64,000 nt of DNA from Euphorbia lathyris (taxonomy: Eukaryota; Streptophyta; Magnoliopsida; Malpighiales; Euphorbiaceae), in NCBI RefSeq assembly GCF_963576675.1, contig NC_088912.1:100159895-100223894 (forward strand). The letters are read 5' to 3'. The stretch's first letter is position 1, and each line of letters begins with the position of its first letter. This document shows, in pieces, positions 5,640 through 62,956 of the stretch. Made by a program: the position numbers and the translations under genes. The notes beneath the pieces were generated by a model. The model did no database searches. It was not told where the DNA came from and was given only the letters and a program-made list of their open reading frames with translations.

Positions 5640-5647
5640 AAACTTGT

Positions 5648-27310: not shown

Positions 27311-30196
<2,886 letters not shown>

Positions 30197-31965: not shown

Positions 31966-32091
31966 CTTTAAGTCGTTCCTTCTTGCTATTATGTGTTGTT
32001 GGTGTTGGTGATGGTGATCGTGATGACGATTGTGATTGTGATGGTGATGGCGGGTCTAAGTACAAAATATCTTGGAGGCAAGTAGTAGTAC
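31966..32091 (-). CDS. Cassette exon 1 (nearest the ArfGAP exons), 126 nt
   Basis: Encodes GTTTCLQDILYLDPPSPS, then a Ser-rich SQSQSSSRSPSPTPTTHNS and KKERLKG. It is richer in serine than other cassettes and has a shortened tail (KKERLK, without the HKSS block). GT-AG borders are intact. Confidence 0.8.
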
Positions 32092-33698
32092 CTAAAAGAA
32101 AAATGCAATTCAATGGCATAAAGCAATGCAGACGCGTCATTAAAAGACATGGTAAAACTATGTATCAGGGAAAAAGTAAAAACTCGACTTTGTAAATGCA
32201 CAATACGTCATTTTAGCTTCAATTTCGACAGGTTTGTCCTATACCCAATTGTCGTAATGCCTTGAATCAGTATAACACACTATGACAGGAAGCAACGGGG
32301 TCTCGCTAGATTCGACATCGTGGGGACATCATGGGTTCGTGGGTTCCAAGTCAGATTAGGTCGTGGGTTCCAAGTCGGATTAGGTTAGATTGGGTATTAT
32401 AAATACCCCATTATGTAAACCTAATTTGTAATTTGTTTTTCACCTCCTAATAAATACTATTCTCCTTCTGCCCGTGGACTAGCCAACACAACGTTGGTGA
32501 ACCACGTAAATCTGCATTTTCGATTGTTTATTTATTTATGTTTCATTGATTCCGCACAACAAACTCTCTTAGCAACGCAAACGCGTAGATAACAGGCGTG
32601 TGGTTACACTTTGTATGAGGGGAAAAGTCCAAACATGGCCTTTATAATTGCACAATGCATCATTTAAGCTCAAGAACCTCAGTTTTGACACATTTGACCC
32701 GCACCCAATTCTATTAGCAATGCAGACGGTTTTAAAAGGCGTATGGTTAAACTACGTATAAGGGAAAAAGTTAAAACATGGCCTTTGTACTTGCACAACG
32801 CGTCATTTTAGCTCCAAGAATTTCAATTCCGACACATTTGACCTATACCTGATTATATTAGCAATGCAGATTCTTTGTCAAAAGGTGTGGTTAAATTATG
32901 TATAAGGGCAGTTAAAAGTCGACCATTGTACTTGCACAACACGTCATTTTAGCTCCACAACTTCAAGTTCAACACATTTGACCTATACCTGATTCTATTA
33001 GCATTGCAGACGCGTTGCTAAAAGGCGTGTTGTTGAACTATGTGTAAGGGAAAAAGTTAAAATTCGGCCTTGGAACTTGCACAATGCGTCCTTTAGCTCC
33101 ACAAATTCGATTTCGACACATTTCACCCGTAATTGATTTTATTAGCAATGCAAATGTGTTGATAAAAGGCTTTGGGTTAAACTGGGTATAAAGGCAAACG
33201 TTAAAGACTTGGCCTCTTGTCATTTTAGCTCCACAACTTCAATTTCGACACATTTGATCATTGACCAATTCTATTAGCAATGCAGACACGTTGCAAAATG
33301 CGTTATTTTAGCTAAAGGACTTCCATTTTGATATATTTGACCTATACTTAGCAACGTAGACGCGTTGTAAGAGGCAATGTAGATAAACTATGTACTTCAA
33401 TTGTGTACTACGCATTCATTTTATTACTATCAATCAAGGAAACTTTGCAAAACTAAAACAAAAGTGGACAAAAGGCTTGTTTGGTTCGACTGTTAGAGAG
33501 CCAAATGAGCTAAAATTGAAGTACATAAACCAAAACGATGCCAAATTTTGACTTTTTCCTTCAGTTAAGCAACAAACTATAAGGATGCGAAATACTACAC
33601 TAAAGCTGAATTTCAAGATTCCATCAATCTTCAATTATGATTAATTAAGAAAGAGGAAAGAATAGAGAATCAATCTTGACAAGAAATTAGAAGATTAC

Positions 33699-33920
33699 CA
33701 GGAGATATATGATTTGGTGCTTGTGCTGGTGCTGGTTCAAGTTCTGGTTCTGGTTTTGCTTCAGGTTTAGGTTCAGGTTCAGTTTCAGCTCCAGGTCCAG
33801 GTCCAGGTCCAGGTGCAGGTTCAGGTTCAGGTTCAGGTTCAGGTTCAGGTTCAGGTACTGGTTCTGGTGTCGGTGCTGATGAGTCTAAGAACAAACTATC
33901 TTCGTGGGGAGTAGAAGTAC
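33699..33920 (-). CDS. Cassette exon 2, expanded (222 nt)
   Basis: Encodes [20 protein letters not shown] followed by (EP)n, GPGPGPG, then [20 protein letters not shown] and a tail NHISPG. The usual KKERHK tail is gone and the middle is enlarged by an in-frame 6-bp (ggttca/ggtcca) repeat expansion. Confidence 0.8.
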
Positions 33921-34230
33921 CTAAAAGAAAAATGAAATTCAATTGCATAATCAATCACAAACTACAGCAATGGGATTGAGCAGAAACAAACAGCGCAAAT
34001 TGCACCGACGATCAATAAAATTTAGTCACTGAAATTTGGACTTTGCCTCACAAAGTTCACTTTTGGTTTCAATAAAGTCGTCACAGATAATTTGTGTACA
34101 TAAACACAGCAGCTAGCGCCATCGGCAAGAGTATAATTTTTAGCATATTTTGACACATTTGACCTGTTCCTGATTCTATTAGCAATGCAGACGCCTTGTT
34201 AAAAAGCATGTGGTTGAGCTGTGTATAAAA

Positions 34231-34368
34231 GGGCAGCCCGGTGCACTACGCGTCCCCGCTAAGCGAGGGTCCGGGGAGGGGTCCCACCACAAGGATGTAC
34301 TGGGGGCACGCCTTCCCCTGCCAATTTTTTTGGCAAGTGGCCGCTCCTAAGACTTGAACCTGTGACCT
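34231..34368 (-). mobile_element. Au-like SINE, truncated at the tRNA-like head
   Basis: Tail and body (gggcagcccggtgcactacgcgtcccc ... ggccgctcctaagacttgaacctgtgacctc) present; box A is missing. Intronic. Confidence 0.8.
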
Positions 34369-35124
34369 CTAAAACGGAAAAATTTAAAAATTCTGCCTTT
34401 ATACTTGCACAATGCGTCATATTAGCTCGAGAACTTCAATTTCGACACATTTGACCTACACCAATTCTATTAGCAATGCACACGCATTGTTAAAAGGCAT
34501 GTGGTAGAACAATGTATAAGTGCAAAACTTAAAACACGGCCTTTTTATGCAAAATGCGTCAATTTAGCTCCGCAACTTCAATTTCGACACATTTGACCTA
34601 TACATGGTTCTATTAACAATGCATACACGTTGTTAAAAGGCTCGTGGTTGAAATATGTATAAGTGTAAAGGTTAGAACTCGGCCTTTGTACTTGCACAAC
34701 AATGCATCATTTTAGCTCTAAGTTCAATTTCGACACATTTGACCAATACCAGATTATTAGCAATGCACACGCATTGTTAAAAGGCGTGTACTTGCACAAT
34801 GCGTCACTTTACCTCCCTAACTTCAATTTCAACAAATTTGATCCATACGTTATTCTATTAGCAACGGAAATGCGTTATCAGAGGCCAATGTGGTTAAACT
34901 ATGTACTTCAATTATGTAACTTGCATTTATTTCAGTACTATCAATAAAGGGCAACTTCACGAAAACTAAAATAAAGTGGATTACGGGCCTGTTTGGTTCA
35001 ACTGTTGTTATTTAGCTATTTGTTGTTGCTGTTTTCTACCTATTAGCCGATTTTCCTTCTAGTAGCTGTTTTTCTATCCTAACCAAACACTTTGTAACCA
35101 AAAGGGGCTTCATAAAAAAAGAAC

Positions 35125-35352
35125 TGTCATATTAATATCTGACACATCCCCACACGCAAATGCCCACTAGGCTTGAAGCGTGCACAACACAGACCCATAT
35201 TACCATGTCCTGCAATCAAATCAACAAATGGGGCTGCCAAGAATCGAACCCTAGACCACTTGATCAAAATGGCTCTGATACCATGTCATGGAACCATTTG
35301 AACTAAAAGCTCAAGCTCATAGTTAAATGTCCACTTCATATAATATCTAACA
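35125..35352 (-). mobile_element. TRIM/SMART-like mini-LTR element with one LTR internally deleted
   Basis: Right LTR 35284-35352 (69 bp) is intact. The left LTR keeps only its ends (tgtcat + attaatatctgaca, 21 bp). Minus-strand primer site TGGTATCAGAGCC adjoins the intact LTR. Target duplication agaac is exact on both sides (35120-35124 and 35353-35357). Confidence 0.85.
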
Positions 35353-35578
35353 AGAACAAACCGAGTACTAAATGTGCCGAGGAACCAAAAGAATGTTTTG
35401 ACTAATACAAAACTCAAATGAGCTAAAATTGAAGTACATAAACCAAAATGACAAGTAATATAAGGATGCCAAATACAACAATAAAGCTGAATTTCAAGGT
35501 TCCATCAAGCTTCAAATACGATATTAAGAGAAAGAAAAGAAATAGAAACACATTCTCGACAAGAAATTAGAAGATTAC

Positions 35579-35701
35579 CAGAAGATTTATGATGCTCCTT
35601 CTTACTATTATTATGAGTTGGTTTTGGTGTTGGTGTTGGTGTTTGTGTTTGTGCCGGTGTTGGTGTAGGTGCTACAGGGTCTTGGTGGAGGGTAGCAGTA
35701 C
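35579..35701 (-). CDS. Cassette exon 3, 123 nt
   Basis: GTATLHQDPVAPTPTPAQTQ, TPTPTPKPTHNNSKKEHHK, SSG. Borders AG/GT intact; the frame is open. Confidence 0.8.
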
Positions 35702-36705
35702 CTAAAAGAAAAATGAAATTCAATTGCATAATCAATCACATACTACGGTATTGAACAGAAACAAACACCGCAAATTGCACCGACGATCACTAAAATTTAG
35801 AGTCGCTGAAATTTGGAGTTTGTTTCACAAAGGTCACATTCAATTTCGATAAAGACATTCCAGCCAATTTGTGTATAAAAACACAATGGAAAGTTGATGT
35901 TGGAAACGAAAAAAGTTGATTATATAGAAACTAAGCCCTATGTCGGACAAGAATATAATTTTCAACATATTTTGACACATTTGACCTATTCATGATTCTA
36001 TTAGCAATGCAGACGCGTTGTAAAACGGTGTGTGGTTAAACTATGTACAAGGGCAAAAAGTCAAAACTCCGCCTTTGTACTTGCACAAGGCGTCATTTTA
36101 GCTCTAGAACTTCAATTTCGACATATTTGACATATACTTAATTCTATTAGCAATAGAGACGCCTTGTTAAAAGGCATGTGGTTAAACCATGTAGAATGGT
36201 AAAAGTTCAAACTCAGCCTTTGTACTTGCACAATGCGTCATTTTAGCTCTAGCACTTCAATTTCGACAGGTTTGACCTAGACCTGATTCTATGAGCAATG
36301 CAGACGCATAGTTAAAAGGCATGCGGTTAAACTATGTATAAGCGTAAAAGTTAAAACTCGGCCTTTGAACTTGCACAACAATGCATCATTTTAGCTCCAC
36401 AACTTCAACTTCAATTCCGTTCCTAATTTTATTAGCAATGCAGGCGCATTGATATGTACTTGCACAATGTGTCACTTTACCTCCAGAAATTCAATTTTGA
36501 CAAATACATGATCAAATAAACCAAAATGACAAACAATAAGTACAATGCCAAATTTTGACTTTTTCCTTTAGTTAAGCAACAAACATAAAGCAGCCAAATA
36601 CTACAATAAAGACGAATTTCAAAATTCCACAAAGCTTCAAGTATGATTAATTAAGAGAAAGAAACGAAATAGAAAATCACTCTTGACAAGAAATTAGAAG
36701 ATTAC

Positions 36706-36837
36706 CAGAAGATTTATTTCGTTCCTTCTTGCTACTATGTGGTTCCTTCTTGCTACTATGAGTTGGTGTTGGTTCTGGTTCCAGTAATGGTGCTCGTGGG
36801 TCAGGGAAGAAAGTATCTTGGTGGAGAGCAGTAGTAC
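36706..36837 (-). CDS. Cassette exon 4, 132 nt
   Basis: GTTALHQDTFFPDPRAPLLE, PEPTPTHSSKKEPHSSKKER, NKSSG. The SSKKE tail is duplicated in frame within the exon. Confidence 0.8.
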
Positions 36838-36884
36838 CTAAAAGAAAAATGAAATTCAGTTGCATAATCAATCACAAACTAGGG

Positions 36885-37083
36885 CACTGGGGCTTGCAGC
36901 GTGTACAACACAGGCCCATCCCACCATGTGTTTTTAATTCCACAAATTAATGAGGCTGCTAGGACTCGAACCCTCGACCGTTTGGTGTCCAAGAGGCTTG
37001 GATACCATGTCATGAAACCGTTTGAACTAAAAGCTCAAGCTGATAGTTAAGACCCAATCATATATCTTATATTAATCTCTGAC
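36885..37083 (-). mobile_element. TRIM/SMART-like element, partial
   Basis: Internal region (cttgcagcgtgtacaacacaggcccatcccaccatgtg...) and one LTR of the tgtcatgaaaccgtttgaac...tctgac subtype. The other LTR is missing. Confidence 0.7.
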
Positions 37084-38222
37084 GGTTCACAAAGGTCACA
37101 TTTGATTTCAATAAAGTCATTCCATCCAATTTGTGTATATAAACACACCGAAAAGTTGATGTCACCAAAAAGAAGTTGATTATATGGCAACTAAGAACTG
37201 TGTCGGAGAAGAATATAATTTGCAATATATTTTGAAAAATTTGACCTATTCCTGATTCTATTAGCAATGCAGAAACTTTGTGAAAATGTGTGTGGTTAAA
37301 CTATGTATAAGGGAAAAAGTAAACACTCGGCCTTTGGACTTGCAAAACGTGTCATTTTAGCTCTAGAACTTCAATTTCGACACGTTTAACACATACCTAA
37401 TTCTATTTGCAATGCAGACGCCTTGTTAAAAGGCATGTGGTTGAACTATGTTACTATGTATAAGGTAAAAGTTAAAACTAAGCCTCAAATTCGGCATATT
37501 TGACCTAGTATTGATTCTATCAGCAATGCAGACGCATTGATAAAATGCATGCGGTTAAACTATGTATAAGGGAAAAAGCCAAAACTCGGCCTTTTGAATA
37601 TGCACAATGTGTCATTTGAGCTCCAGAACACAATTTCAACACATTTGATCTATACGTGATTCTATTAGAAATGTCAAGGCGTTGTTAAAAAGCATGTGGT
37701 AAAACTATGTACAAGGGAAAAAGTTAAAACTTGGGTTTTGTATGCAAATTCCTTGTTTTAGCTCCTCAACTTCAATTTAGACACAATTCCATTATCAATG
37801 CACACACATTGTTAAAAGGTGTGTGGGTAAACTATGTATAAGCAAAAACGTTAAAATGAAACCTTTTTACTTGCACAACAATGCATCATTTTAGCTCCAC
37901 AACTTCAATTGCAACATATTTGGCCTATAACCGATTCTATTAGCAATGCAGGCGCATTGTTAAAAGGCGTGTGTGCTTGCCCAATGCGTCACTTTACCTC
38001 CAGAAATTCAATTTCGACAAATGCAGGACGCAAATAAATCAAAATGACAAACAATAAGTACACTGCCAAATTTTGACTTCTCCCTTTACTTAAGCAACAA
38101 ACTATAAGGACGCCAAATACTACAACAAAGCCGAATTCCAAAATTCCATAAAGCTTCAAGTATGATTAATTAACAAAAACAGAAAATAGAATATCATTCT
38201 TGGCAAGAAATTAAAAGCTTAC

Positions 38223-38333
38223 CACAAGATTTATGTGGTTCCTTCTTGCTACTATGAGTTGGTGTTGGTTCTGGTTCTAGTACCGGTGCTCGTGGGTCAG
38301 GGAAGAAACTATCTTGGTGGGGAGTAGTAGTAC
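38223..38333 (-). CDS. Cassette exon 5, 111 nt
   Basis: FPDPRAP-type cassette: GTTTPHQDSFFPDPRAPVLE then PEPTPTHSSKKEPHKSCG. The donor is gtaagc instead of gtaatc. Confidence 0.8.
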
Positions 38334-39526
38334 CTAAAAAGAAAAATGAAATTCAGTTGCATAATCAATCACAAACTAGGGTCCTCACGGTTGGCCAGCT
38401 GTTGATGATATGAATCAAGGCTAGTTTTTTCCGGAAAAATTCAAAAGCATTGGGATTGCGCAGAAACAAAAAGGGTAAATTGCAACATTGATCGCTAAAA
38501 TTTGGAGTTTGTTCACAAACGTCATATTTAATTTCGGTAAACATATTTAGCCAATTTGTGTATATAAACCCACCAGAAAGTTGATGTGGCACCAAAAAAA
38601 GTTGATTATATGGCAAGTAAGCCCCGTGTCGGAGAAGAATATAATTTGCAACATGTTTTGACACATTTGACCTATTCCTTATTTTATTACCAACGCAGAC
38701 ACATTGTGAAAATGTGTGTTGTTAAACTATGTATAAGGGAAAAAGTTAAAACTCGGCCTTTGCACTTGCACAAAGCATCATTTTAGCTCTAGAACTTCAA
38801 TTACGACACATTTGACATATACCTAATTCTATTTGCAATATAGACGCCTTGTTAAAAGGCATGTGGTTGAATTTGTACTTGCACAATGCTTACCTAGTAT
38901 TGATTCTATTAGCAATGCAGACGCATTGTTAAAAGGCATGCGGTTAGACTATGTATAACAGAAAAATGTCAAAACTTGGCCATTTTACTTGCATAATGCG
39001 TCATTGTAGCTCCAGAACTTCAATTTCGACACATTTGATCTATGCGCATGTGGTAAAACTTATGCATCTGTTAAAGCAATGCATACGGGTTGTTAAAAGG
39101 CATGTGGTAGAACTAGGTATAAGGGAAAAAAGTTAAAACTTGGATTTTGTATGCAAATTCGTTGTTTTAGCTCCTCAACTTCAATTTCGACACATTAGAC
39201 CTGTATGCGATTCCATTAGCAGTGCACATGCATTGTTAAAAGGCGTGTGGGTAAACTATGTATAAGCAAAAAAGATAAAACTCAACCTTTGCACTTGCAC
39301 AACTATGCATTATTTTCGCTCCAGAACTTCAATTGCGACACATTTGACCTATACCTGATTCTATTAGCAATGGAGGCCCATTGTTAAAAGACGTGTGCTT
39401 GCACAAAGCGTCATTTTACCTCCAGAAATTCAATATCGACAAATACAGGACCCAAATAAACCCAAATAAAAAATAATTAAGTACAAGAAATAGAAAATCA
39501 TTCTTGACAAGAAATTAGAAGATTAC

Positions 39527-39637
39527 CACAAGATTTATGCCCTTCCTTCCTGCTATTATGAGTTGGTGTTGGTTCTGGTTCTAGTGCTGGTGCTCGTGGG
39601 TCAGGGAAGGAAGAATCTCGGTGGAGAATAGTAGTAC
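39527..39637 (-). CDS. Cassette exon 6, 111 nt
   Basis: GTTILHRDSSFPDPRAPALE, PEPTPTHNSRKEGHKSCG. Open, AG/GT borders. Confidence 0.8.
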
Positions 39638-40489
39638 CTAAAAGAAAAATGAAATTCAGTTACATAATCAATCACAAACTAGGGTAAATTGCACTGTTGA
39701 TCACTAAAATTTGGAGCTTGTTCACAAAGCTCACATTTGATTTCGATAGTCATTCCTGCAAATTTGTGTATATAAACACAACAGAAAGTTGATGTGGCAC
39801 CGAAAAAATTTGCTTATATGGAAACTAAGCGTTGTGTCGGAGAAGAATATAATTTTCAACATATTTTAACACATTTGAACTATTCCTGATTCTAGTAGCA
39901 ATGCAGAAATGCGAGTGGTTAAGCTATGTATAAGGGCAAAAGTTAAAGATCGGCCTTTGTACTAACACAACGTGTTGTTTTAGCTCTAGAACTTTAGTTT
40001 CGACACATATACCTAATTCTATTAGCAATACAGACGCATTGTTAAAACGCAAGGGATTGAAGTACGTATAAGGTAAAATTTTAAAACTCAACCTTTGTAC
40101 TTGCACAATGCGTCATTTTAGCTTTAGCACTTCAATTTCGACAGATTTGATTCTATTAGCAACGGAGACGCATTGTTAAAAGGCATGCGGTTAAACTACG
40201 AATAAGGGAAGAAGTAAAAAACTGGCCTTTGTACTCTCACAATGCGTCATTTTAGCTCCAGAATTTCAATTTCGACACATTTGATCTATACGTGATTCTT
40301 TTAGAAATCGACACTTTGTTAAAAGGCATGTGGTTGAACTAAGTATAAGGGCAAAAGTAAATCTCTGTCTTTGTACTTGCACAATGTGTCATATTAGCTC
40401 GAGAACTTCAATTTCAACACATTTGACCTATACACGATCCCATTTGCAATGCAAACACGTTGTTAAAAGCCGTGTGATAAAGCTATATA

Positions 40490-40544
40490 CAACAACAACA
40501 ACAACAACAAAGCCTTAGTCCCGAAATGATTCGGGGTCGGCTAA
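40490..40544 (-). mobile_element. RTE LINE 3' end, very short (antisense)
   Basis: (ACA/CAA)n followed by agccttagtcccgaaatgattcggggtcggcta: the reverse complement of the RTE 3' UTR and (TTG)n tail seen at 31858 and 44274. Confidence 0.85.
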
Positions 40545-40891
40545 TACAAGGCATCATTTTAGCTCCACAACTTCAGTTTCGACACATTTGACCTATGCCC
40601 GATTCTATTAGCAATGCATACGCATTGTTAAGAGGCATGTGCTTGCACAATGCGGCACTTTACCTCCAGATATTCAATTTCGACAAATACAGGACCCAAT
40701 TAAGCCAACATGACAAACAATAAGTACAATGCCAAATTTTGACACTTTCCTGTAGTTAAGCATTAACATATAACCAAGCCGAATACTACAATAAAGTCGA
40801 ATTTCAAGATTCCATAAACCTTCTAAGTATGATTAATTAAGAGAAGGAAAAGAAATAAAAAATCATTCTTGACAAGAAATTAGAAGATTAC

Positions 40892-40996
40892 CAGAAGATT
40901 TATGACGTTCCTTCTTACTATTATGAGTTGGTTTTGGTGTTGGTTCAGGTGCTGGTTGGTCTAAGGACATAGTATCTTGGTGGAGAGTAGTAGTAC
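40892..40996 (-). CDS. Cassette exon 7, 105 nt
   Basis: GTTTLHQDTMSLDQPAPEPT, PKPTHNSKKERHKSSG. Open, AG/GT borders. A truncated duplicate of its acceptor side lies at 41121-41160 without a donor. Confidence 0.8.
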
Positions 40997-41865
40997 CTAA
41001 AAGAAAAATGAAATTCAGTTGCATAATCAATCATGTCAGATATTAATATGAAGAATAATTTGATGTGGCACCGAATTTTTTTGATTATATGGCAACTAAG
41101 CGCGGTGTCGGACAAGAAGAATAGAGTATTAGTACCTAAAAGAAAAATGAAATTTAATTGCATAATAAATCACAAACTAGGGCATTGGGATTGCACAAGA
41201 TAAATTGCATTGTTGATCACTAAAATTTTGAGTTTCTTCACAAAGGTCACATTTCCTTTCGATAAAGTCATTTCAGCCAATTTGTGTATACAAACACATC
41301 GGAAATTTGATGTGGCACCGAATTTTTTTGATTATATGGCAATTAAGTGCGGTGTTGGACAAGAATATAATTTTCAACATATTTCGACAGATTTGACCTA
41401 TTCCTGATTCTACTAGCAATGCAGACGCGTATAAGGGAAAAACTTAAAACTCAACCTTTGCACTTGCACATCGCGTCATTTTAGCTCTACAACTTTAATT
41501 TCGTCACATTTCACATATATCTAATTCTATTAGCAATACAATTGTCTTGTTAAAAGGCGTGCGGTTAAACTATGTATAAGTGTGAAAGTTAAAACTAAGC
41601 CTTTGTACTTGCAAAATGCATCATTTTAACTCCAGAACTTTAATTTCGACACAATTGATGTATCAGCGATTCTATTAGAAATTTCGACGCTTTGTTAAAA
41701 GGCATGTGGTTAAACTAAGTATAAGGGCAAAAGTAAAACTCTGCCTTTGTATTTGCACAATGCGTCATATTAGCTCGAGAACTTCAATTTCGAGACCTTG
41801 GAGCTATACTCATTATGTTAGCAATGCACACACGTTGTTAAAAGGCATGTGGTAGAACTATGTAT

Positions 41866-41960
41866 AACAACAACGACAACAACAACAAAGCGTTAGTCCT
41901 GAAACGATTCGGGGTCGGCTAACATGAACCATCATATGAAACCATGCAATCAAGTCGTGG
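41866..41960 (-). mobile_element. RTE LINE 3' end (antisense), ~95 bp
   Basis: (CAA)n then agcgttagtcctgaaacgattcggggtcggctaacatgaaccatcatatgaaaccatgcaatcaagtcgtg, matching the RTE 3' UTR in reverse. Confidence 0.85.
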
Positions 41961-41987
41961 TAAAACTATGTATAAAAAAAAAAAAAA

Positions 41988-42053
41988 GGGCGGCCCGGTC
42001 GCATTACGCGTCCCCGCTGAGCGAGGGTCCGGGGAGGGGTCCCACCACAAGGG
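41988..42053 (-). mobile_element. Au-like SINE tail fragment
   Basis: Poly-A on plus followed by gggcggcccggtcgcattacgcgtccccgctgagcgagggtccgggg; head missing. Confidence 0.75.
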
Positions 42054-42178
42054 TGGTAAAACTATGTATAAGGGAAAAATTTTAAACTTGGCTTTTGTAT
42101 GCAAAATGCATCGGATTAACTCCTCAACTTCAATTTCGACACATAGAATCTCATGTTGATAAGAAATTAGAAGATTAC

Positions 42179-42289
42179 CACAAGATTTATGCGGTTCCTT
42201 CTTGCTACTATGAGTTGGTGTTGGTTCTGGTTCTAGTGCTGGTGCTCGTGGGTCAGGGAAGGAAGTATCTCGGTGGAGAATAGTAGTAC
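42179..42289 (-). CDS. Cassette exon 8, 111 nt
   Basis: GTTILHRDTSFPDPRAPALE, PEPTPTHSSKKEPHKSCG. Open, AG/GT borders; very close to exons 6 and 10. Confidence 0.8.
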
Positions 42290-43407: not shown

Positions 43408-43512
43408 CAGAAGATTTATGACGTTCCTTCTTGCTATTATGAGATGGTTTTGGTGTTGGTTCAGGTGCTTGCTGGTCTAAGATCATAGTATCTTGGTGTA
43501 GAGTAGTAGTAC
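43408..43512 (-). CDS. Cassette exon 9, 105 nt
   Basis: GTTTLHQDTMILDQQAPEPT, PKPSHNSKKERHKSSG. Open, AG/GT borders; sister of exon 7. Confidence 0.8.
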
Positions 43513-44716: not shown

Positions 44717-44827
44717 CACAAGATTTATGCTGTTCCTTCTTGCTACTATGAGTTGGTGTTGGTTCTTGTTCTAGTGCCGGTGCTCGTGGGTCAGGGAAGG
44801 AAGTATCTCGGTGGAGAATAGTGGTAC
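44717..44827 (-). CDS. Cassette exon 10, 111 nt
   Basis: GTTILHRDTSFPDPRAPALE, QEPTPTHSSKKEQHKSCG. Open, AG/GT borders. Confidence 0.8.
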
Positions 44828-45150: not shown

Positions 45151-45273
45151 CAGATGATTTATGACGTTCCTTCTTGCTACTATGAGTTGGTTTTTGTGTT
45201 GGTTCTGGTGCTGGTGTTGGTTCTGCTGCTGGTGGGTCTAACAACAAAGTATCTTGGTGTTGAGTAGTAGTAC
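45151..45273 (-). CDS. Cassette exon 11, 123 nt
   Basis: GTTTQHQDTLLLDPPAAEPT, PAPEPTQKPTHSSKKERHK, SSG. Open. It is only ~320 bp from exon 10, the shortest intron of the array. Confidence 0.8.
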
Positions 45274-47124: not shown

Positions 47125-47235
47125 CAGACGATTTATGTCGTTCCTTCTTGGTACTATGAGTTGGTTTTTGTGTTGGTGTTGGTGTTGCTTGCGGTGGGTC
47201 CGAGAAACAAGTATCTTGGTCGGGAGTAGTAGTAC
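47125..47235 (-). CDS. Cassette exon 12, 111 nt
   Basis: GTTTPDQDTCFSDPPQATPT, PTQKPTHSTKKERHKSSG. The acceptor is tttcag rather than ttttag. Confidence 0.8.
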
Positions 47236-48392: not shown

Positions 48393-48509
48393 CACAAGAT
48401 TTATGTCGTTCCTTCTTGCTATGATGAGTTGGTTTTGATGTTGGTGTTGGTTCTGATGCTGGTGCTGGTGCTGGTGGGTCTAAAGTATCTTGGTGGACAG
48501 TAGTACTAC
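48393..48509 (-). CDS. Cassette exon 13, 117 nt
   Basis: GSTTVHQDTLDPPAPAPASE, PTPTSKPTHHSKKERHKSCG. Open, AG/GT borders. Confidence 0.8.
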
Positions 48510-50474: not shown

Positions 50475-50696
50475 CAGAAGATTTATGTCGTTCCTTCTTC
50501 TTATTATGAGTTGGTTTTGTGGTCGGTGTCGGTGTTGGAGATACTGCTGATGCTGGTGTAGTTGATGGTGGGTCTAAGAACATAAGAACTTGGTGGAGAG
50601 CCGAAGTACCAACACCATAAGATTTATGCCGTTGCTTCTTGGTATTATGAGCTGGTTTTGGTGTTGATGTCGGTGTCGGTTCTGGTGCTGGTGGGT
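50475..50696 (-). CDS. Cassette exon 14, a fusion of two cassettes (222 nt)
   Basis: Begins DPPAPEPTPTSTPKPAHNTK (5' part of the cassette deleted, the acceptor ttttag now joining at ACCC), continues KQRHKSYG|VGTSALHQV with no intron between, then LDPPSTTPASAVSPTPTPTT and KPTHNKKKERHKSSG. Both the deletion and the intron loss preserve the reading frame and phase. Confidence 0.8.
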
Positions 50697-52284: not shown

Positions 52285-52413
52285 CAGGAGATTTATGTCG
52301 TTCCTTCTTTCTATTATTAGTTGGTGTTGGTGCTGGTGCTGGTGCTGGTGTTGGTGTTGGTTCTGGTGCTGGTGGGTCTAATAAACAAGTATCTTGGCGG
52401 ACCGGGGTAGTAC
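52285..52413 (-). CDS. Cassette exon 15, 129 nt
   Basis: GTTPVRQDTCLLDPPAPEPT, PTPAPAPAPTPTNNRKKERH, KSPG. First of the NNRKKERHKSPG subtype; donor gtagtc. Confidence 0.8.
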
Positions 52414-53480: not shown

Positions 53481-53640
53481 ATTTTGATGATGTATTAGTT
53501 TTGTTTTTCATACTCAAATAATATATTTTCATAATTTTCTTCTTACTATTTGTTCAAGAGCAGTCAAAAATTACAGTTAATCCTTATGTTTTTTAAGGTA
53601 ATTATTCGATTTTTTTAATATGTAGTAGTTATTTTTTTGC

Positions 53641-54034
53641 CAAACGTTGTTGTCGTGTGTCATGGATAGCTGACACACCCCCACACGCGAAAGCACACTT
53701 GGGCTTGAAGCGTGACAACACAGGCCCATATTACCATGTCCTGCAAATAACTCAACAAAGGGAGCTGCCAGGAATCGAACCCAGGACCACTTGGTCACAC
53801 TGGCTCTGATATCATGTCATGGAACCGTTTTAGCTAAAAGCTCAAGCTGATAGTTAAAGGTCCACTTCATATTAATAGCTGACATCGTGTGACCAAGAGG
53901 TCACGGGTTCGAGTCTTAGGAGCGGCCTCTTGCCAAATAAATTGGCAGGGGAAGGCTTGCCCCCAGTACACCCTTGAGGTGGGATCCCTCCCTGGACCCT
54001 CACTCAGCGGGACGCGTAATGCACCGGGCCGCCT
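53641..54034 (+). mobile_element. Au-like SINE interrupted by a TRIM/SMART element
   Basis: SINE head ...aacgttgttgtcgtg (53643-53657) and remainder tgaccaagaggtcacgggttcgagtc...gcaccgggccgcc (53890-54034) become contiguous when the TRIM at 53658-53884 is removed. First ~20 bases of the SINE missing. Confidence 0.85.
53658..53884 (-). mobile_element. TRIM/SMART-like element nested in a SINE
   Basis: Left LTR internally deleted (tgtcatgg + atagctgaca), full interior, right LTR ending aatagctgaca. Target duplication tcgtg is exact (53653-53657 and 53885-53889) and lies within the SINE. Confidence 0.88.
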
Positions 54035-54183
54035 TTAATAGTTGTTATAGTTTCATCTTTGAGAGATGAAATTTCTTTAAAAGGGATGTGGTTAAACTAT
54101 GTCTTTGTACTTGCACAATGCGTCATATTACCTCAAGAACTTCAATTTCGACACATTTGACCTATACTGATTCTATTAGCAAT

Positions 54184-54355
54184 GGCAACACAGGCCCATA
54201 TTACCATGTCCTGCAAATAACTCAACAAATGGGGCTGCCAGGAATGGAACCCAGGACCACTTGGTCACACTAGCTCTGATACCATGTCATGAAACCGTTT
54301 TAGCTAAAAGCTCAAGCTGATAGTTAAAGGTCCACTTCATATTAATAGCTGACAC
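54184..54355 (-). mobile_element. TRIM/SMART-like element, one end missing
   Basis: Interior from caacacaggcccatattacc and a full right LTR (tgtcatgaaaccgtttt...aatagctgaca); fused on the left to satellite sequence. Confidence 0.75.
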
Positions 54356-55057
54356 AGTTAAACTATGTATAAGGTAAAAAGTTAAAACTTGGCCTTTGTA
54401 TGCAAAATGCATCGTTTTAGCTCCTCCACATTAATTTCGACACTTTTTACTTATACGTTGTTAACAAGTGTGTGGTTAAACTATGTATAAGCACAAATTA
54501 AAACTCAGCCTTTGTACTTGCACAACAATGCATCATTTTAGCTCCACAACTTCAATTTCGACACATTTGACCTACACATGATTCTATTATCAATGCAGAC
54601 GCATTGTTAAAAGGCATGTGCTTGCAAAATGGGTCACTTTACATCCAGAACTTCAATTTCGACACACTTAACATATACACAACGAATACGCATTGTTAGA
54701 GGGCAATGTGGTTAAACTATGTACTTCGATTATGTGGCTGTGCATTTATTTCAGTACTGTCAGCGAAGGGCAACTTTGCGAAAACTAAAAAATAAAGCGG
54801 ATTAAGGGCCGGATTGGTTCAACTGTGCCGAGGGACCAAAAGAAAGGTTTGACAAATACAGGACCCAGATGAGCTAAAATTGAAGTACATAAACCAAAAC
54901 GACAAACAATAAGTACAATGCCAAATTTTGACTTTTTCCTTCAGTTAACCACACACTATAAAGCTGAATTTCCAGATTCCATCAAGCTTAAAGTATGATT
55001 AATTAAGAGACAGAAAAGACATAAAAAATCATTCTTCACAAGAAATTAGAAGATTAC

Positions 55058-55180
55058 CAGGAGATTTATGTCGTTCCATCTTTCTATTATTAGTCGGTGT
55101 TGGTGTTGGTGCTGGTGTTGGTGCTGGTTCTGGTGCTGGTGGGTCTAATAAACAAGTATCTTGGCGGACCGGGGTAGTAC
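55058..55180 (-). CDS. Cassette exon 16, 123 nt
   Basis: GTTPVRQDTCLLDPPAPEPA, PTPAPTPTPTNNRKMERHK, SPG. Open, AG/GT borders. Confidence 0.8.
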
Positions 55181-55431
55181 CTAAAAGAAAAATGAAATTC
55201 AATTGCATAATCCATCACAACTACATCATTGGGATTGAACAGAAACAACCAGGGTAAATTGCAGCGATGGTCACTAAAATTTAGAGTCGTATAAATTTGG
55301 AGTTTGTCTAGCAACTAAGCGCTATGTTGGACAGCTATATAATTTTCATCATATTTTGATACATTTGACCAATTCCTGATTCTATTAGCAATGGAGATGC
55401 ATTGGTGTGGTTAAACTATGTATTGTCATGG

Positions 55432-55680
55432 AACCGTTTGAACTAAAAGCTCAAGCTCTTAGGTAAGGCTCAATCATATAGCTTATACTAATCTCTGACA
55501 CACTCCCACACGCAACCCTCGACCGTTTGATCGTTTGATCCTAGAGGACCTGATACCATGTCATGGAACCGTTTGAATTAAAAAATTAAAAACATATGGT
55601 GGGATGGGCTTGTGTTATGCACACTGCAAGCCCAATGGGCATTTGCGTGTGGGTGTGTGTCAGAGATAGTATAAGTTATG
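55432..55680. mobile_element. TRIM/SMART fragments of both orientations
   Basis: tgtcatggaaccgtttgaactaaaagctcaagc... (minus) ends in a second LTR start at ~55558. This is followed by plus-oriented interior (catatggtgggatgggcttgtgttatgcacactgcaagcccaatgggcatttgcgtgtgggtgtgtgtcagagat). An inverted rearrangement of two copies. Confidence 0.6.
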
Positions 55681-56130
55681 TCATGGAACCGTTTTAGCTA
55701 AAAACTCAAGCTAATAGTTAAAGGTCACACCCCCACACGCGAAAGCACACTTGGGCTTGAAGCGTGACAACACAGGCCCATATTACCATATCCTGCAAAT
55801 AACTCAACAAATGGGGCTGTCGACTACTTGATCACACTGGCTCTGATACCATGTCATGGAACCGTTTTAGCTAAAAGCTCAAGCTAATAGTTAAAGGTCC
55901 ACTTCATATTAATAGCTGACACACACCCACACGCGAAACCACACTTGGGCTTGAAGCGTGACAACACAGGCCCATATTACCATGTCCTGCAAATAACTCA
56001 ACAAATGGGGCTGCCAGGAATCGAACCCAGGACTACTTGATCACACTGGCTCTGATACCATGTCATGGAACCGTTTTAGCTAAAAGCTCAAGCTAATAGT
56101 TAAAGGTCCACTTCATATTAATAGCTGACA
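55679..56130 (-). mobile_element. TRIM/SMART tandem: LTR-interior-LTR-interior-LTR
   Basis: Three LTR copies (the first shortened, tgtcatggaaccgttttagc...aaaggt) separated by two interiors (cacccccacacgcgaaagc... and cacccacacgcgaaacc...). Such chains come from LTR-LTR recombination between elements. An inverted LTR piece (gattgggtcttaactatcagctcgagctttt) follows at 56140-56185. Confidence 0.8.
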
Positions 56131-57084
56131 AGATATATGATTGGGTCTTAACTATCAGCTCGAGCTTTTAGTTAAAACGGTTCCAAACATGTACAAGGGC
56201 AAACGTTAACACTCGGCCTTTGTACTTGCACAATGCACAATTTTAGCTCTAAAACTTCAATTTGGACATATTTAACATATAGTTGATTCAATTAGCAATA
56301 GAGACGCCTTGTTAAAAGGCATGCAGTTAAACTATGTATAAGGGTAAAAGTTAAAACTCAGTCTTTGTATGTGCAGAATGCATCAATTTAGCACTAGCAC
56401 TTAAAATTCGACATATTTGATAGGCATGCGGTTAATAGGCATGCGGTTAAACTATATATAAGGGAAAAAGTTAAAACCCAGCCTTTGTGCTTACACAATG
56501 CGTCATTTAAACTCCAGAACCTCAATTTCGACACACTTAACATATACTTTATTCTATTGGCAACGAATACGCATTGTTAGAGGGCAATGTGGTTAAACAA
56601 TGTACTTCAATTATGTAACTCTGCATTTATTTCAGTACTGTCAACGAAGGGCAACTTTGCGAAAACTAAAACAAAGCCGATTAAGGGCCTGGTCGGTTCA
56701 ACTGTTGTTATTTACTCGTTGTTGTTGTTGTTGTTTGGTGGTAGATGTTAGCTGATTTTCCTTCAATTTTAGCTATCATCAGCAGTTGTTTTTCTATCTT
56801 AACCAAACACTTTGTATCATAAAGGAGCTTCATAAAGAGAACAAATTTAAATGTGCCGAGGGACCAAAAGAAAGTTTTGACAAATACAGGACCCAGATGA
56901 GCTAAAATTGACGTACATTAACCAAAACGACAAACAAAAAGTACAATGCCAAATTTTGACTTTTTCCTTCGGATAACCACACACTATAAACTGAATTTTA
57001 AGTTTCCATCGAGCTTCAAGTATGATTAATCAAGAAAAAGAAAAGACATAAACGAACATTCTAGAAAAGAAATTAGAAGATTAC

Positions 57085-57189
57085 CAGGAGATTTAAGTCG
57101 TTCCTTCTTTCTATTATTAGTTGGTGTTGGTTCTGGTTCTGGTGCTGGTGGGTCTAATAAACGAGTATCTTGGCGGACCGTGGTAGTAC
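57085..57189 (-). CDS. Cassette exon 17, 105 nt, with a replaced acceptor
   Basis: GTTTVRQDTRLLDPPAPEPE, PTPTNNRKKERLKSPG. Upstream of the exon the normal ttttcttttag is replaced by unrelated satellite sequence reading ...taaattcacag. This still supplies an AG at the right place, but with a weaker pyrimidine tract. Confidence 0.7.
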
Positions 57190-57782
57190 CTGTGAATTTA
57201 TACACGATTCTATTAGCAATGGAGGCTCATTGTTAAAAGGTGTGTGCTTGCACAATGAGTCAATTTACCTCTAGAACTTCAATTTCGACACACTTAACAT
57301 ATACTTTATTCTATTGGCAACGGATACGCATTGTTAGAGGGCAATATGGTTAAACTATCTACTTGAATTATGTAACTGTGAATTTATTTCAGTACTGTCA
57401 ATCAAGGGGAACTTTGCGAAAACTAAAATGAAGTGGATTAAGGGCCTGATTGGTTCAACTATTGTTAATTTATTGTTTGTTGTTGTTGTTTGCTGATATA
57501 CGTTAGCTGATTTTCCTTCCAATTTAGCTATCAGCAACTGTTTTTCTATCTTAACCAAACAATTTGTATCATAAAGGAGCTTCATAAAGAGAACAAATCT
57601 AAACGTGCGGAGGGACCAAAAGAAAGCTTTAACAAAGACCCAGATGAGCGAAAACTGAAGTACATTAAACCCTAAATACTACAATAAAGCTGAATTTCAA
57701 ATTCCATCAAGCTTCAAGTATGATTAATTAAGAGGAAAAAAAGACATAAAAAATCATTCTTCACAAGAAATTAGGAGATTAC

Positions 57783-57881
57783 CAGGAGATTTATGACGTT
57801 CCGTCTTTCTATTATTAGTTGGTGTCCATTCTGGTTCTGGTGTGTCTAATAAACAAGTATCTTGGCGGACCGGGGTAGTAC
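57783..57881 (-). CDS. Cassette exon 18, 99 nt (shortest)
   Basis: GTTPVRQDTCLLDTPEPEWT, PTNNRKTERHKSPG. Open, AG/GT borders. Confidence 0.8.
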
Positions 57882-58741
57882 CTAAAAGAAAAATGAAATT
57901 CAATTGCATAATCCATCACAAACTACAGCATTGGGATTGGACAGAAACAACCAGGCTAAATTGCATCGATGATCACTAAAATTTAGAGTCGGAGAAACTT
58001 GGAGTTTGTATCACAAAGGTCATCGATAAAGTCATCCCAGGCAATTTGCGTCATAAACACATAGGAAAGTTGATGTGGCACCGAAAAAGGTTGATTATAT
58101 AGCAACTAAGCGCTATGTCGGACAAGTATATAATTTTCAACATATTTTGACACATTTGACCTATTCTTGATTCTATTAGCAATGGAGACACATTGTTAAC
58201 ATGTGTGTGGTTAAAATATGTATAAGGGCAAACGATAAAACTCGGGCTTTGCACTTGCACAACGCGTCATTTTAGCTTTAAAACTTCAATTTGGACATAT
58301 TTGACATATACTTGATTCTATTAGCAATAGAGACGCCTTGTTAAAAGTCAGGCGGTTCAACTATGCATAAGGGTAAAAGTTAAAACTCAGCCTTTGTACG
58401 TGCAGAATGCGTCAATTTAGCTCTAGCACTTCAATTTCGACATGTTTGACCTTGACTGATTCTATTAGCAATAGAGATGCATTGTTATTAATAGGCATGC
58501 GATTAAACTAGGCCTTTGTACTTACACAATGCACCATTTTAACTCCCAAACTTCACGTACGAGCTTCTATTAGCAATATCGATGCATCATTAAATGGGAT
58601 GTGGTTAAACTATGTCTTTGTACTTGCACAATGCGTCATATTACCTCGAGAACTTCAATTTTGACACATTTAACCTATACTGATTCTATTAGCTATGGAG
58701 ATGCGTTGCTAAAAGGCATGCGGTTGAACTATGTATAAGGG

Positions 58742-58985
58742 TGTCAGATATTAATATGAAGTGGACCTTTAACTATCAGCTTGAGCTTTTAGTTCAATCG
58801 GTTCCATGAAGCCAATTTGACCAAGTAGTCTAGGGTTCGATTATTGGCAGCCTCATTTGTCGATTTAATTGCAAGACATGGTGTTGTGCACAATTCAAGC
58901 CCAGTGGGCATTCGTGTGTGGGGGTGTGTCAGATATTAATATGAAGTGGACCTTTAACTATCAACTTGACCTTTTAGTTCAACAC
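58742..58985 (+). mobile_element. TRIM/SMART-like element, plus orientation, primer site deleted
   Basis: tgtcagatattaatatgaagtgg...ggttccatga LTR, interior with gtgtgtgggggtg, second LTR tgtcagatattaatatgaag...ttttagttcaa truncated. The tggtatcagagc segment after the first LTR is missing. Confidence 0.75.
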
Positions 58986-59610
58986 ATTTTACTTATACGT
59001 TGTTAACAACCGTGTGGTTAAACTATGTATAAGCACAAATTAAAACTTGATCTTTGTACTTGCACAACAATGCATCATTTTAGCTCCACAACTTCAATTT
59101 CGACACATTTGACCTATACATGATTCTATTATCAATGCAGACGCATTATTAAAAGGTGTGTGCTTGCACAATGAGTCACTTTACCTCCGAAACATCAATT
59201 TCGACACACTTAACATATACTTTATTCTATTGGCGACGGATACGCATTGTTAGAGGGCAATGTGGTTAAACTATGTACTTCAATTATGTAACTCTGCATT
59301 TATTTCAGTACTGTCAGCGAAGGGTAACTTTGCGAAAACTAAAAATAAAGCGGATTAAGGGCCGGATTGGTTCAACTGTGCCGAGGGACCAAAAGAAAGG
59401 TTTGACAAATACAGGACCCAGATGAGCTAAAATTGAAGTACATAAACCAAAACGACAAACAATAAGTACAATGCTAAATTTTGACTTTTTACTTCAGTTA
59501 ACCACCCACTATAAAGCTGAATTTCAAGATTCCATCAAGCTTAAAGTATGATTAATTAAGAGAAAGAAAAGACATAAAAAATCATCCTTGACAAGAAATT
59601 AGAAGATTAC

Positions 59611-59721
59611 CAGGAGATTTATGCCGTTCAATCTTTCTATTATTAGTTGGTGTTAGTGTTGGTGTTGGTTCTGGTGCTGGTGGGTCTAATAAACAAGTAT
59701 CTTGGCGGACCGGGGTAGTAC
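59611..59721 (-). CDS. Cassette exon 19, 111 nt
   Basis: GTTPVRQDTCLLDPPAPEPT, PTLTPTNNRKIERHKSPG. Open; its surrounding intron is near-identical to that of exon 20. Confidence 0.8.
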
Positions 59722-60619
59722 CTAAAAGAAAAATGAAATTCAATTGCATAATCCATCACAAACTACAGCATTTGGATTGAACAGAAACAACCAGGGTAAA
59801 CTGCATCGATGATCACTAAAATTTAGAGTCGGAGAAATTTGGAGTTTGTTTCACAAAGGTCACATATTATTTCGATAAAGTCATCCCAGCCAATTTGTGT
59901 TATAAACACACTGGAAGTTGATGTGGCGCCGAAAAAGGTTGATTGTATAGCAACTAAACGCTATGTCGGAGTATATAATTTTAAACATATTTTGACACAT
60001 TTGACCTATTCCTGATTCTATTAGCAATGGAGACACATTGTTGACATGTGTGTGGTTAAACTATGTATAAGGGCAAACATTAAACCTCGGCCTTTGCACT
60101 TGCACAACGCGTCATTTTAGCTTTAAAACTTCAATTTGGACATATTTGACATATACTTGATTCTATTAGCAATAGAGACACCTTGTTAAAAGGCATGCGG
60201 TTAAACTATGAATAAGGGTAAAAGATAAAACTCGGCCTTTGTTCGTGCAGAATGCGTCAATTTAGCTCTAGCACTTCAATTTCGATATATTTGACCTTGA
60301 CCTGATTCTATTAGCAATGGAGATGCATTGTTAATAGGCATGTGGTTAAACTATGTATAAGGGAAAAACTTAAAACCCGGCCTTTGTACTTACACAGTGC
60401 GTCATTTTAACTCCAGAACTGCAATTTCGACACTTACGAGATTCTATTAGCAATGTCGATGCATCGTTAAATGGGATGTGGTTAAACTATGTTTCTGCAC
60501 TTGCACAATGCATCATATTACCTCGAAAAACTTCAATTTCGACACATTTGACCTATACTGATTCTATTAGCAATGGAGATGCGTTGTTAAAAGGCATGCC
60601 ATTGAACTATGTATAAGGG

Positions 60620-60890
60620 TGTCAAAAATTAATATGAAGTGGACCTTTAACTATCAGCTCTACCTTTTAGTTCAATCGGTTCCATGACATGGCATCAGAG
60701 CCAGTTTGACCAAGTAGTCTAGGGTCCGATTCGTGGCAGCCCCATTTGTTAATTGCAAGACATGGTAATATGGGCCTGCGTTGTGCACGCTTCAAGCCCA
60801 ATGGGCATTCGTGTGTGGGGGTGTGTTAGATATTGAAGCGTGTGGGGGTGTGTTAGATATTAATATAAAGTGGATCTTTAACTATATAAG
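60620..60890 (+). mobile_element. TRIM/SMART-like element, plus orientation
   Basis: LTR, primer site tggcatcagagcc (one change), interior, and a purine tract plus LTR start present twice (gtgtgggggtgtgttagatatt at ~60815 and ~60840), then a truncated LTR. Confidence 0.75.
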
Positions 60891-61500
60891 TTGTTAACAA
60901 GCGTGTGGTTAGACTATGTATAAGCACAAATTAAAACTCGATCTTTGTACTTGCACAACAATGCATCATTTTAGCTCCACAACTTCAATTTCGACACATT
61001 TGACCTATACGTGATTCTATTATCAACGCAGACGCATTATTAAAAGGTGTGTGCTTGCACAATGAGTCACTTTACCTCCGGAACATCAATTTCGACACAC
61101 TTAACATATACTTTATTCTATTGGCGACGGATACGCATTGTTAGAGGGCAATGTGGTTCAACTATGTACTTCAATTATGTAACTGTGCATTTATTTCACT
61201 ACTGTCAGCGAAGGGCAACTTAGCGAAAACTCAAATATAGCGAATTAAGGGCCAGATTGGTTCAACTGTGCCGAGGGACCAAAAGAAAGCTTTGACAAAT
61301 ACAGGACCCTGATGAGCTAAAATTGAAGTACATAAACCAAAACGACAAACAATAAGTACAATGCCAAATTTTGACTTTTTACTTCAGTTAACCACACACT
61401 ATAAAGCTGAATTTCAAGATTCCATCAAGCTTAAAGTATGATTAATTAAGAGAAAGAAAAGACATAAAAAATCATTCTTGACAAGAAATTAGAAGATTAC

Positions 61501-61611
61501 CAGGAGATTTATGCCGTTCAATCTTTCTATTATTAGTTGGTATTGGCGTTGGTGTTGGTTCTGGTGCTGGTGGGTCTAATAAATTAGTATCTTGGCGGAC
61601 CGGGGTAGTAC
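61501..61611 (-). CDS. Cassette exon 20, 111 nt
   Basis: GTTPVRQDTNLLDPPAPEPT, PTPIPTNNRKIERHKSPG. Open, AG/GT borders. Confidence 0.8.
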
Positions 61612-62845
61612 CTAAAAGAAAAATGAAATCCAATTGCATAATCCATCACAAACTACAGCATTTGGATTGAACAGAAACAACCAGGGTAAACTGCATCGAT
61701 AATCACTAAAATTTAGAGTCGGAGAAATTTGGAGTTTGTTTCACAAAGGTCACATATTATTTCGATAAAGCCATCCCAGGCAATTTGTGTTATAAACATA
61801 TCGGAAAGTTGATGTGGCACCGAAAAAGGTTGATTATATAGCAACTAAGCGCTATGTCGGACAACTATATAATTTCATCATATTTCGACACAATTGACGT
61901 ATTCCTAATTCTATTAGCAATGGAGACACATGTTGACATGTGTGTGGTTAAACTATGTATAAGGGCAAACATTAAAACTCGGCCTTTGTGCTTGCACAAC
62001 GCGTCATTTTAGCTCTAAAACTTCAATTTGGACATATTTGACAAACTTCAATTTGGTCACATTTGACATGTACTTGATTCTATTACCAATAGAGACGCCT
62101 TGTTAAAAGGCACACGGTTTTACTATGCATAAGGGTAAAAGTTAAAACTCAGCCTTTGTACGTGCAGAATGCGTCAATTTAGCTCTAACACTTCAATTTC
62201 GACATATGTGACCTTGACTGCTTCTATTAGCAATAGAGATGCATTGTTAATAGGCATGCGGTTAAACTATGTATAAGGGAAAAAGTTAAAACTCGGCCTT
62301 TGTACTTACATAATGCGCCATTTTAACTCCAAAACTTCAATTTCAACACGTACAAGATTCTATTAGTAATGTTGACACATGGTTAAATGGGATGTGGTTA
62401 AACTATGTCTTTGCACTTGCACAATGCATCATATTACCTCGAGAACTTTAATTTCGACACATTTAGGAAAGAAGATGTGTTGTTAAAAGGCATGCGGTTG
62501 AACTATGTATAAGTAAGGGTGTCGGATATTAATATGAAGTAGACCTTTAACTATCAACTTGAGCTTTTAGTTCAACACATTTTACTTATACGTTGTTAAC
62601 AAGCGTGTGGCTAACTATGTATAAGCACAAATTAAAACTCGGCCTTTGTACTTGCACAACAATGCATCATTTTAGCTCCACAACTTCAATTTCGACACAA
62701 TTTGACCTATACATGATTCTATTATCAGTTCAGGCGCATTACTAAAAGGCGTGTGCTTGCACAATGAGTCACTTTACCTCAAGTACGATTAATTGAGAGA
62801 AAGAAAAGACATAAAATCATCCTTGACAAGAAATTAGAAGATTAC

Positions 62846-62956
62846 CAGGAGATTTATGCCGTTCCTTCTTTCTATTATGAGTTGATGTCGGTGCTGGTGT
62901 TGATGTCGGTGCTGGTGGGTCTAAGGACAAAATATCTTCACGGGAAGTAGAAGTAC
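62846..62956 (-). CDS. Cassette exon 21 (most upstream in the window), 111 nt
   Basis: GTSTSREDILSLDPPAPTST, PAPTSTHNRKKERHKSPG. Like exon 2 it has an S-x-E-D start (GTST), unlike the GTTPVRQDT group next to it. Acceptor ttattttag. Confidence 0.8.

Follow-up and report, generated by a model that had tools for sequence, protein, structure and literature searches.

An array of 22 in-frame cassette exons in AGD11 of Euphorbia lathyris: a probable tandem expansion of the second coding exon

Is a run of 21 small related exons, spread over 31 kb upstream of an Arf GTPase-activating protein (GAP) gene, a coding region, a menu for splicing or the relic of a duplicated intron? The question is raised by a 64,000-nucleotide (nt) stretch of Euphorbia lathyris DNA (C3:100159895-100223894, here called the window), to which the 60 kb from its end onward were added, with the window numbering continued. 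The gene is identified below as AGD11. The account that we consider probable is that its second coding exon was tandemly duplicated to 22 cassettes between exon 1 and the ArfGAP exon, and that the cassettes are spliced wholly or variably into a disordered tether. As judged from the DNA and from related proteins, the array is a real explosion of one exon, specific to this locus, and very probably it is translated in some measure or was so until a short time ago.

The 21 cassettes of the window lie on the minus strand from 62956 to 31966, and AG before and GT after the exon were found in 21 of 21. All lengths are multiples of 3 (99 to 222 nt), all cassettes are in phase 1-1 and none contains a stop; summed, they make 2619 nt, or 873 codons. 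The positions, borders, phases, lengths, open frames and total size of the array had been put forward in an earlier, sequence-only reading of this DNA, and all were confirmed by recount. Divisibility by 3 holds throughout but is partly trivial, and it was rejected as evidence by itself, since the proline-rich part of the cassette expands in hexanucleotides; only the non-repeat exon ends are therefore informative on frame. Because the phase is shared, any cassette could be added, skipped or fused without a frame shift. The cassettes, each with AG/GT borders, phase 1-1 and no stop, and one remnant among them are as follows:

62846..62956, minus strand: cassette E01, 111 nt
61501..61611, minus strand: cassette E02, 111 nt
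59611..59721, minus strand: cassette E03, 111 nt; nearest copies E02 and E06
57783..57881, minus strand: cassette E04, 99 nt
57085..57189, minus strand: cassette E05, 105 nt; sequence before the exon replaced, present acceptor TTCACAG
55058..55180, minus strand: cassette E06, 123 nt
52285..52413, minus strand: cassette E07, 129 nt
50475..50696, minus strand: cassette E08, 222 nt; in-frame fusion of two cassettes, intron lost
48393..48509, minus strand: cassette E09, 117 nt; in-frame 6-nt deletion
47125..47235, minus strand: cassette E10, 111 nt
45151..45273, minus strand: cassette E11, 123 nt
44717..44827, minus strand: cassette E12, 111 nt
43408..43512, minus strand: cassette E13, 105 nt
42179..42289, minus strand: cassette E14, 111 nt; resembles E12
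41119..41150, minus strand: orphan acceptor stub with ~10 nt of cassette left (by eye)
40892..40996, minus strand: cassette E15, 105 nt; resembles E13
39527..39637, minus strand: cassette E16, 111 nt
38223..38333, minus strand: cassette E17, 111 nt
36706..36837, minus strand: cassette E18, 132 nt; in-frame 21-nt duplication
35579..35701, minus strand: cassette E19, 123 nt; in-frame deletion of 15 nt and in-frame insertion of 3 nt
33699..33920, minus strand: cassette E20, 222 nt; Pro-Glu hexamer expanded, in-frame 15-nt deletion
31966..32091, minus strand: cassette E21, 126 nt; 5' end TTTCLQDILYLD like the single Hevea cassette

In E08 the intron between two cassettes was lost nearly exactly, with six extra bases and the frame kept, and the first half begins at an internal TTAG, 36 nt into a normal cassette and in the same phase (both by eye). 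A fusion of this kind would fit a recombination event involving a spliced message. Nearest-copy comparison of the cassettes revealed the block pairs E12/E14 and E13/E15, and pairs of this kind suggest that two-cassette blocks were duplicated. The spacing of the cassettes, with the 22nd cassette and the ArfGAP exon included, ranges from 446 to 2767 nt. In the stub near 41135, an acceptor and the first ~10 nt of a cassette are joined to unrelated intron sequence (by eye); this acceptor, if used, would shift the frame, with 139 nt to the next exon. No further or decayed cassette was credible in the window (nhmmer --max and blastn), where short matches at chance level were all that appeared. The idea that the array looks intact because decayed cassettes were overlooked was therefore rejected, with none credible beyond the stub and the acceptor loss in the 22nd cassette.

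The start of the gene was found beyond the end of the window, with these features:

63906..64000, minus strand: part of the intron 3' of the 22nd cassette
64123-64049 (continued numbering), minus strand: 22nd cassette; canonical acceptor lost, an in-phase internal TTAG would give a 75-nt exon
66598-66562 (continued numbering), minus strand: coding exon 1, MEMSVRQDNNSD/G, 37 nt, ending in phase 1, 2.6 kb past the window end

The cassette count is 22, or 23 units with the fused E08 counted as two, and splice sites are intact in 21 of the 22. No additional cassette was found beyond the 22nd up to position 123906 at E 1e-3. A genome-wide DNA search with a near-consensus cassette and its flank, made with a tool that skips very common words, gave 22 matches, all at the AGD11 locus (C3:100191799-100223982) and none elsewhere. 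The exon 1 peptide is of the type MS.RQ.NSDG and matches MSVRQDNSDG in the AGD11-like protein P0007 of Manihot. Joined together, exon 1, the 22 cassettes and seven ArfGAP-C2 exons form 3768 nt, or 1255 codons, with a single terminal stop. Models without any cassette (357 residues) and with E21 alone (399 residues) are open as well. The seven downstream exons are:

30112..30196, minus strand: first ArfGAP exon, beginning in phase 1
29923..29998, minus strand: second ArfGAP exon, which holds HRSLG
28359..28522, minus strand: third ArfGAP exon
28051..28267, minus strand: end of the ArfGAP domain and linker
27852..27968, minus strand: first C2 exon
27667..27762, minus strand: second C2 exon
27311..27592, minus strand: third C2 exon and stop codon

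Reading these exons bore out the earlier claim that the ArfGAP exon at 30196 begins in the same phase as the cassettes. The downstream protein matched PF01412 (ArfGAP zinc finger, E 2.1e-37) followed by PF00168 (C2, E 3e-24). The 120 best of 1387 matches in a protein search were compared. The nearest of these 120 by identity were Malpighiales proteins mostly named AGD11 (79–81% in Jatropha, Hevea and Manihot), and not AGD12/ZAC, the proteins with which the sequence-only reading had compared it. The top E-value among the matches listed belonged to a Brassica model in which a segment of C2 is repeated and which was 55% identical. In a 29-row tree, built without AGD12 or AGD13 rows, the protein fell among Malpighiales (99/96) and weakly beside Linum (86/90). 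By its domains and by its relatives' names, which are the sources' own, the gene is a plant AGD11, an Arf GTPase-activating protein with a C2 domain and with predicted GAP activity and Ca2+/lipid binding. A few matches with AGD11-type N-termini carry the name AGD12 (e.g. Melia, P0073). No second AGD11 was seen among 12 other ArfGAP places in the genome (eight short loci and nine 10-kb stretches, so that exons outside them would be missed); similarity to the ArfGAP part as well as the C2 part was confined to L018 (51–77%, depending on the exon) and L002 (44%).

Evidence on the fate of the array comes from the reading frame. Insertions and deletions (indels) in the non-repeat exon ends were compared with those in the first 95 nt of the intron after each of the 22 cassettes, three of these flanks being cut at the end of homology. 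The flanks held 17 distinct events, four of which, at the right-hand end, were dropped as alignment drift; among the 13 kept, two were multiples of 3 and 11 were frame-breaking. In the exons all six indels were multiples of 3 (by eye: E09 -6, E18 +21, E19 -15 and +3, E20 -15, E21 -6), or eight of eight with both E08 events (Fisher p 0.001 and 0.0002 respectively, against 2/13). At the flank rate 11.7 frame-breaking indels would be expected in 1878 nt of exon and none was observed (P 8.5e-6), the 22nd cassette being counted from its internal acceptor and its 5' part left out; without three flank events in a T run the expectation is ~8.5 (P ~2e-4).

Similarly, neutral simulation on the cassette tree predicted a stop in 5.8–9.1 of the 23 units, and none has one. 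The probability of no stop was 0.0085 at full scale and 0.04 at 0.7 scale with exon base frequencies; when intron-like frequencies were assumed, the two values were 0 of 2000 runs and 0.013. About 165 substitutions were inferred on the cassette tree, yet there are zero stops and zero frame-breaking indels. These results agree with the earlier argument that neutral drift should have broken several copies, and the contrast in indel phase between exons and introns that it anticipated was found. Most likely, to judge from this pattern, selection holds the frame open and tolerates sequence change, as in a translated disordered tether.

Further evidence was obtained from related proteins, in which the cassette has recognizable homologues. 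In the Hevea protein (P0004) the N-terminus runs MSMRQENSD, followed by GTATCLQDLLFPDKHSWTRKDRHKFSG and next by the start of the ArfGAP domain. The window cassettes retain both ends of this segment (GTTTCLQDILYLD... and ...KKERHKSSG types), flanking the proline-rich hexanucleotide insert, which the Hevea, Jatropha and Ricinus cassettes lack. When window cassettes were anchored at both ends to two Hevea cassettes, none of 5000 shuffles reached the observed score in any of the four tested. The same anchoring was reached by 0–2 of 5000 shuffles for Ricinus, 0 for the Turnera-type P0021 and 0–3 for Populus; for Jatropha 31–279 shuffles reached the score, and a fixed register does not fit.

A profile built from relatives only served to count cassettes at the N-termini of P0001–P0124, 122 proteins in all once two with <15 residues before the zinc finger were left out. 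These relatives are database gene models, with several near-duplicates per species, seen as proteins and not as exons in DNA. One cassette was found in 94 N-termini, none in 14, three in 11, four in two and two in one. The 13 proteins with three or four (from P0034 to P0057, and P0122) are of the Populus/Salix type, 12 of them so named. Seven of the 14 without a cassette have a clean junction of exon 1 peptide and ArfGAP domain (by eye), the others being partial or odd models. None of the 124 relatives with N-termini read, among the matches listed, has more than four cassettes; the window N-terminus matched the profile 22 times. In a further protein search, N-termini were read for the first four new rows, and the other plant rows were mostly fusions with other domains. 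A search with a shortened cassette composite found nothing at E <= 0.001 among the 8000 candidates scored.

Two isoforms of Nicotiana tomentosiformis, X1 (P0068) with a cassette and X2 (P0054) without, differ at the N-terminus by exactly that segment. Isoform X2 of Populus nigra is without 12 residues at one cassette's start, which corresponds to the internal TTAG position here. Among the Populus/Salix isoforms or models are also some that have dropped either a whole cassette or just the first 12 residues of it. Since isoforms and models with and without the cassette exist, the second exon of AGD11 was probably already optional in ancestors. The 22-cassette array looks like a tandem explosion of that exon, with a modest multiplication in Populus/Salix. 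The sequence-only reading had proposed that the array is translated now or was recently, giving a Pro/Thr/Glu-rich, predicted-disordered N-terminus of ~870 residues or a menu for splicing; frame conservation, an upstream exon 1 that matches relatives and cassette homology to a segment which relatives' models include or omit all lend support to this proposal.

Several observations weigh against the account of a selected, translated array. Just nine of the 22 profile matches reach domain E < 0.1, because of the proline-rich insert. Preservation is not perfect, as one cassette has been reduced to the stub at 41119-41150, and a deletion in the 5' part of the 22nd cassette took its usual splice acceptor. 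The weakest stop simulation leaves a probability of 0.04 for the absence of stops. For most cassette donors the pairing with U1 is modest (-5.1 kcal/mol). At the non-repeat ends dN/dS was 0.976, no better than 1 (log-likelihood -760.19 vs -760.20), as estimated with our own estimator on an IQ-TREE tree from an alignment of 29 codons, short for the number of branches; the IQ-TREE codon run itself warned of too few sites. Finally, exon and intron substitution in E02, E03, E06 and E07 was alike (5/87 vs 53/542, p 0.32).

Pairwise differences at codon positions 1, 2 and 3 of the non-repeat ends were 0.183, 0.218 and 0.207. The 3' part alone had an omega of 0.71 (log-likelihood gain 2.2, nominal p ~0.04), and the 5' part 1.20. 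Amino-acid conservation across the cassettes was therefore rejected, no overall constraint being detected by the dN/dS comparison that had been suggested earlier. Lower substitution in exons than in introns was likewise not found in the four young copies; a second comparison (six copies, 170 nt; intron 62/166, exon 9/87) was left unused, as the flanks of E04 and E05 looked misaligned. The sequence-only reading had named, as one result that would speak against it, exons no better conserved than introns in phase and stops. Phase and open frames proved to be kept far better than the flank indels allow; the bases themselves are no better conserved.

A splicing menu, in which each mRNA takes up a single cassette or a few of them and the array persists as a source of isoform diversity and not of a giant tether, overlaps with the tether account, which leaves the degree of inclusion open. 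We regard this version as possible and hold it tentatively. It is favoured by the common phase, which leaves any subset in frame, by the open 357- and 399-residue products, and by the single cassette that is present or absent in database isoforms such as those of N. tomentosiformis. Nearly all cassette donors also pair worse with U1 than does the exon 1 donor; however, they are no weaker than the gene's own ArfGAP-C2 donors and lie within their range (-4.1 to -6.4). The fusion in E08 suggests that neighbouring cassettes were once together in a spliced message. Moreover, no docking/selector pairing above shuffles was found for two conserved intron elements when they were set against the first intron and the last one only, where 15–32 of 60 shuffles had pairing energies at or below those observed. 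Mutually exclusive splicing through RNA pairing thus had no support in the first and last introns and was set aside.

An unlikely explanation is that the array is a relic or a young by-product, a duplicated intronic segment that contained an exon, with cassettes mostly skipped, unselected and intact through youth or homogenization. The dN/dS of 0.98 fits it, as do the similar exon and intron substitution of the young copies and an intron divergence of 3–6% over the first 555 nt in the six pairs among E02, E03, E06 and E07. The introns are also full of insertions: many runs of a ~145-nt tandem repeat (minisatellite) occur between 30000 and 64000, together with about ten tRNA-like pieces (by eye and motif) resembling short interspersed elements, none of which overlaps a cassette by coordinates. 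Against it stand the ~165 substitutions without a stop or frame-breaking indel, compared with 11 frame-breaking indels in the flanks of the same copies. An alternative promoter, with an ArfGAP start just upstream of 30196 and an array left behind as a disused 5' portion of the gene, is very improbable, for the in-frame ATG two codons into the ArfGAP exon (ATG 30191) is outweighed by exon 1, which matches relatives, has been kept 36 kb upstream and has a good donor, and by the frame constraint visible across the array.

On the account of a duplicated second exon that encodes a tether, unequal exchange of exon-plus-intron units would have enlarged the array, as the block pairs suggest, and the cassettes would be spliced in wholly or variably. 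The product would be an N-terminal disordered tether of up to ~900 residues, in which acidic-proline blocks alternate with basic KKERHKS-type tails. Selection would maintain frame and splice sites and permit sequence change, and different inclusion would give different tether lengths. At membranes this would probably set how far the GAP reaches, its crowding or its phospho-regulation. By composition only, the 898-residue N-terminal region has a pI of 8.8, a GRAVY of -1.40 and an Uversky H of 0.344, below the boundary of 0.417, with 117 K+R, 107 D+E and 13 aromatics. A disordered N-terminus would follow from this proline-rich, charged composition and low hydrophobicity. The cassettes hold 16 R-x-K-S motifs, from which their repeated phosphorylation is a reasonable idea. 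In Arabidopsis, AGD12 is described as a C2-containing ARF GTPase activator located at the trans-Golgi network (TGN), mutants of which are affected in gravitropism (PMC8890496), and ZAC/AGD12 is listed among gravistimulation-specific phosphoproteins (PMC13054138).

AGD11 proteins of Euphorbiaceae and other eudicots are like the present one in having ArfGAP and C2 domains, a similar exon 1 peptide and a homologous cassette; in the models read they have either no cassette or a single one of ~26 residues, compared with 22 here. Those of Populus and Salix share tandem cassette copies before the ArfGAP domain, with three to four copies known from protein models alone. A comparative series is thus available, in which most of the relatives read have 0 or 1 cassette, Populus and Salix 3–4 and the present gene 22. 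Titin and Dscam are examples of animal genes with large exon arrays; no plant exon array of such size was found in the literature searched or among the relatives' proteins read. The titin PEVK region, with 81–116 exons per mammal and a number held to change by exon duplication (PMC6469411), would be the closest system in kind. Like the array here, it is a long run of small in-frame exons, rich in Pro, Glu and Lys, that changes by exon duplication and loss (PMC6469411). It differs in being a long-known spring of animal muscle; no homology is expected and the likeness is in kind only.

In Dscam, a large number of related exons stand in tandem within a single gene (PMC1397879). In contrast to Dscam-type clusters, here all 21 lengths are multiples of 3, exons can be joined to one another, one pair is fused and the introns tested showed no docking pairing; Dscam-like mutually exclusive splicing sits badly with the fused E08. 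The AGD11 array is a variant of tandem exon duplication and not a separate kind of system. It separates frame constraint (in-frame indels) from sequence constraint (dN/dS ~1), as a length-selected disordered region predicts. It is conceivable, if doubtful, that variable inclusion yields a family of membrane-traffic regulators with disordered tethers of 0 to ~900 residues, a plant counterpart of titin PEVK in which selection acts on length and frame and not on sequence.

Other long AGD11 N-termini were noticed among the relatives. Six Linum AGD11 models (P0003, P0006, P0011, P0012, P0017 and P0121) have 522–782 residues and long Ser/Pro/Gln-rich N-termini, with a single cassette in five of the six, a separate route to a longer N-terminal region. 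The 683-residue Andrographis paniculata protein (P0124) carries many SSAATPESGCK-type repeats before its single cassette, an apparent N-terminal expansion. In Rhamnella rubrinervis (P0023), a ~29-residue exon-1-like peptide (MAT...TMCQR...) occurs three times in tandem. Elsewhere in the window, retrotransposon-like gag and pol pieces lie at 422-7427 on both strands (by eye from open reading frames), and 15299-16087 on the plus strand holds an open gene that is glutaredoxin-like and has a GRXCR1/2 domain at its C-terminus.

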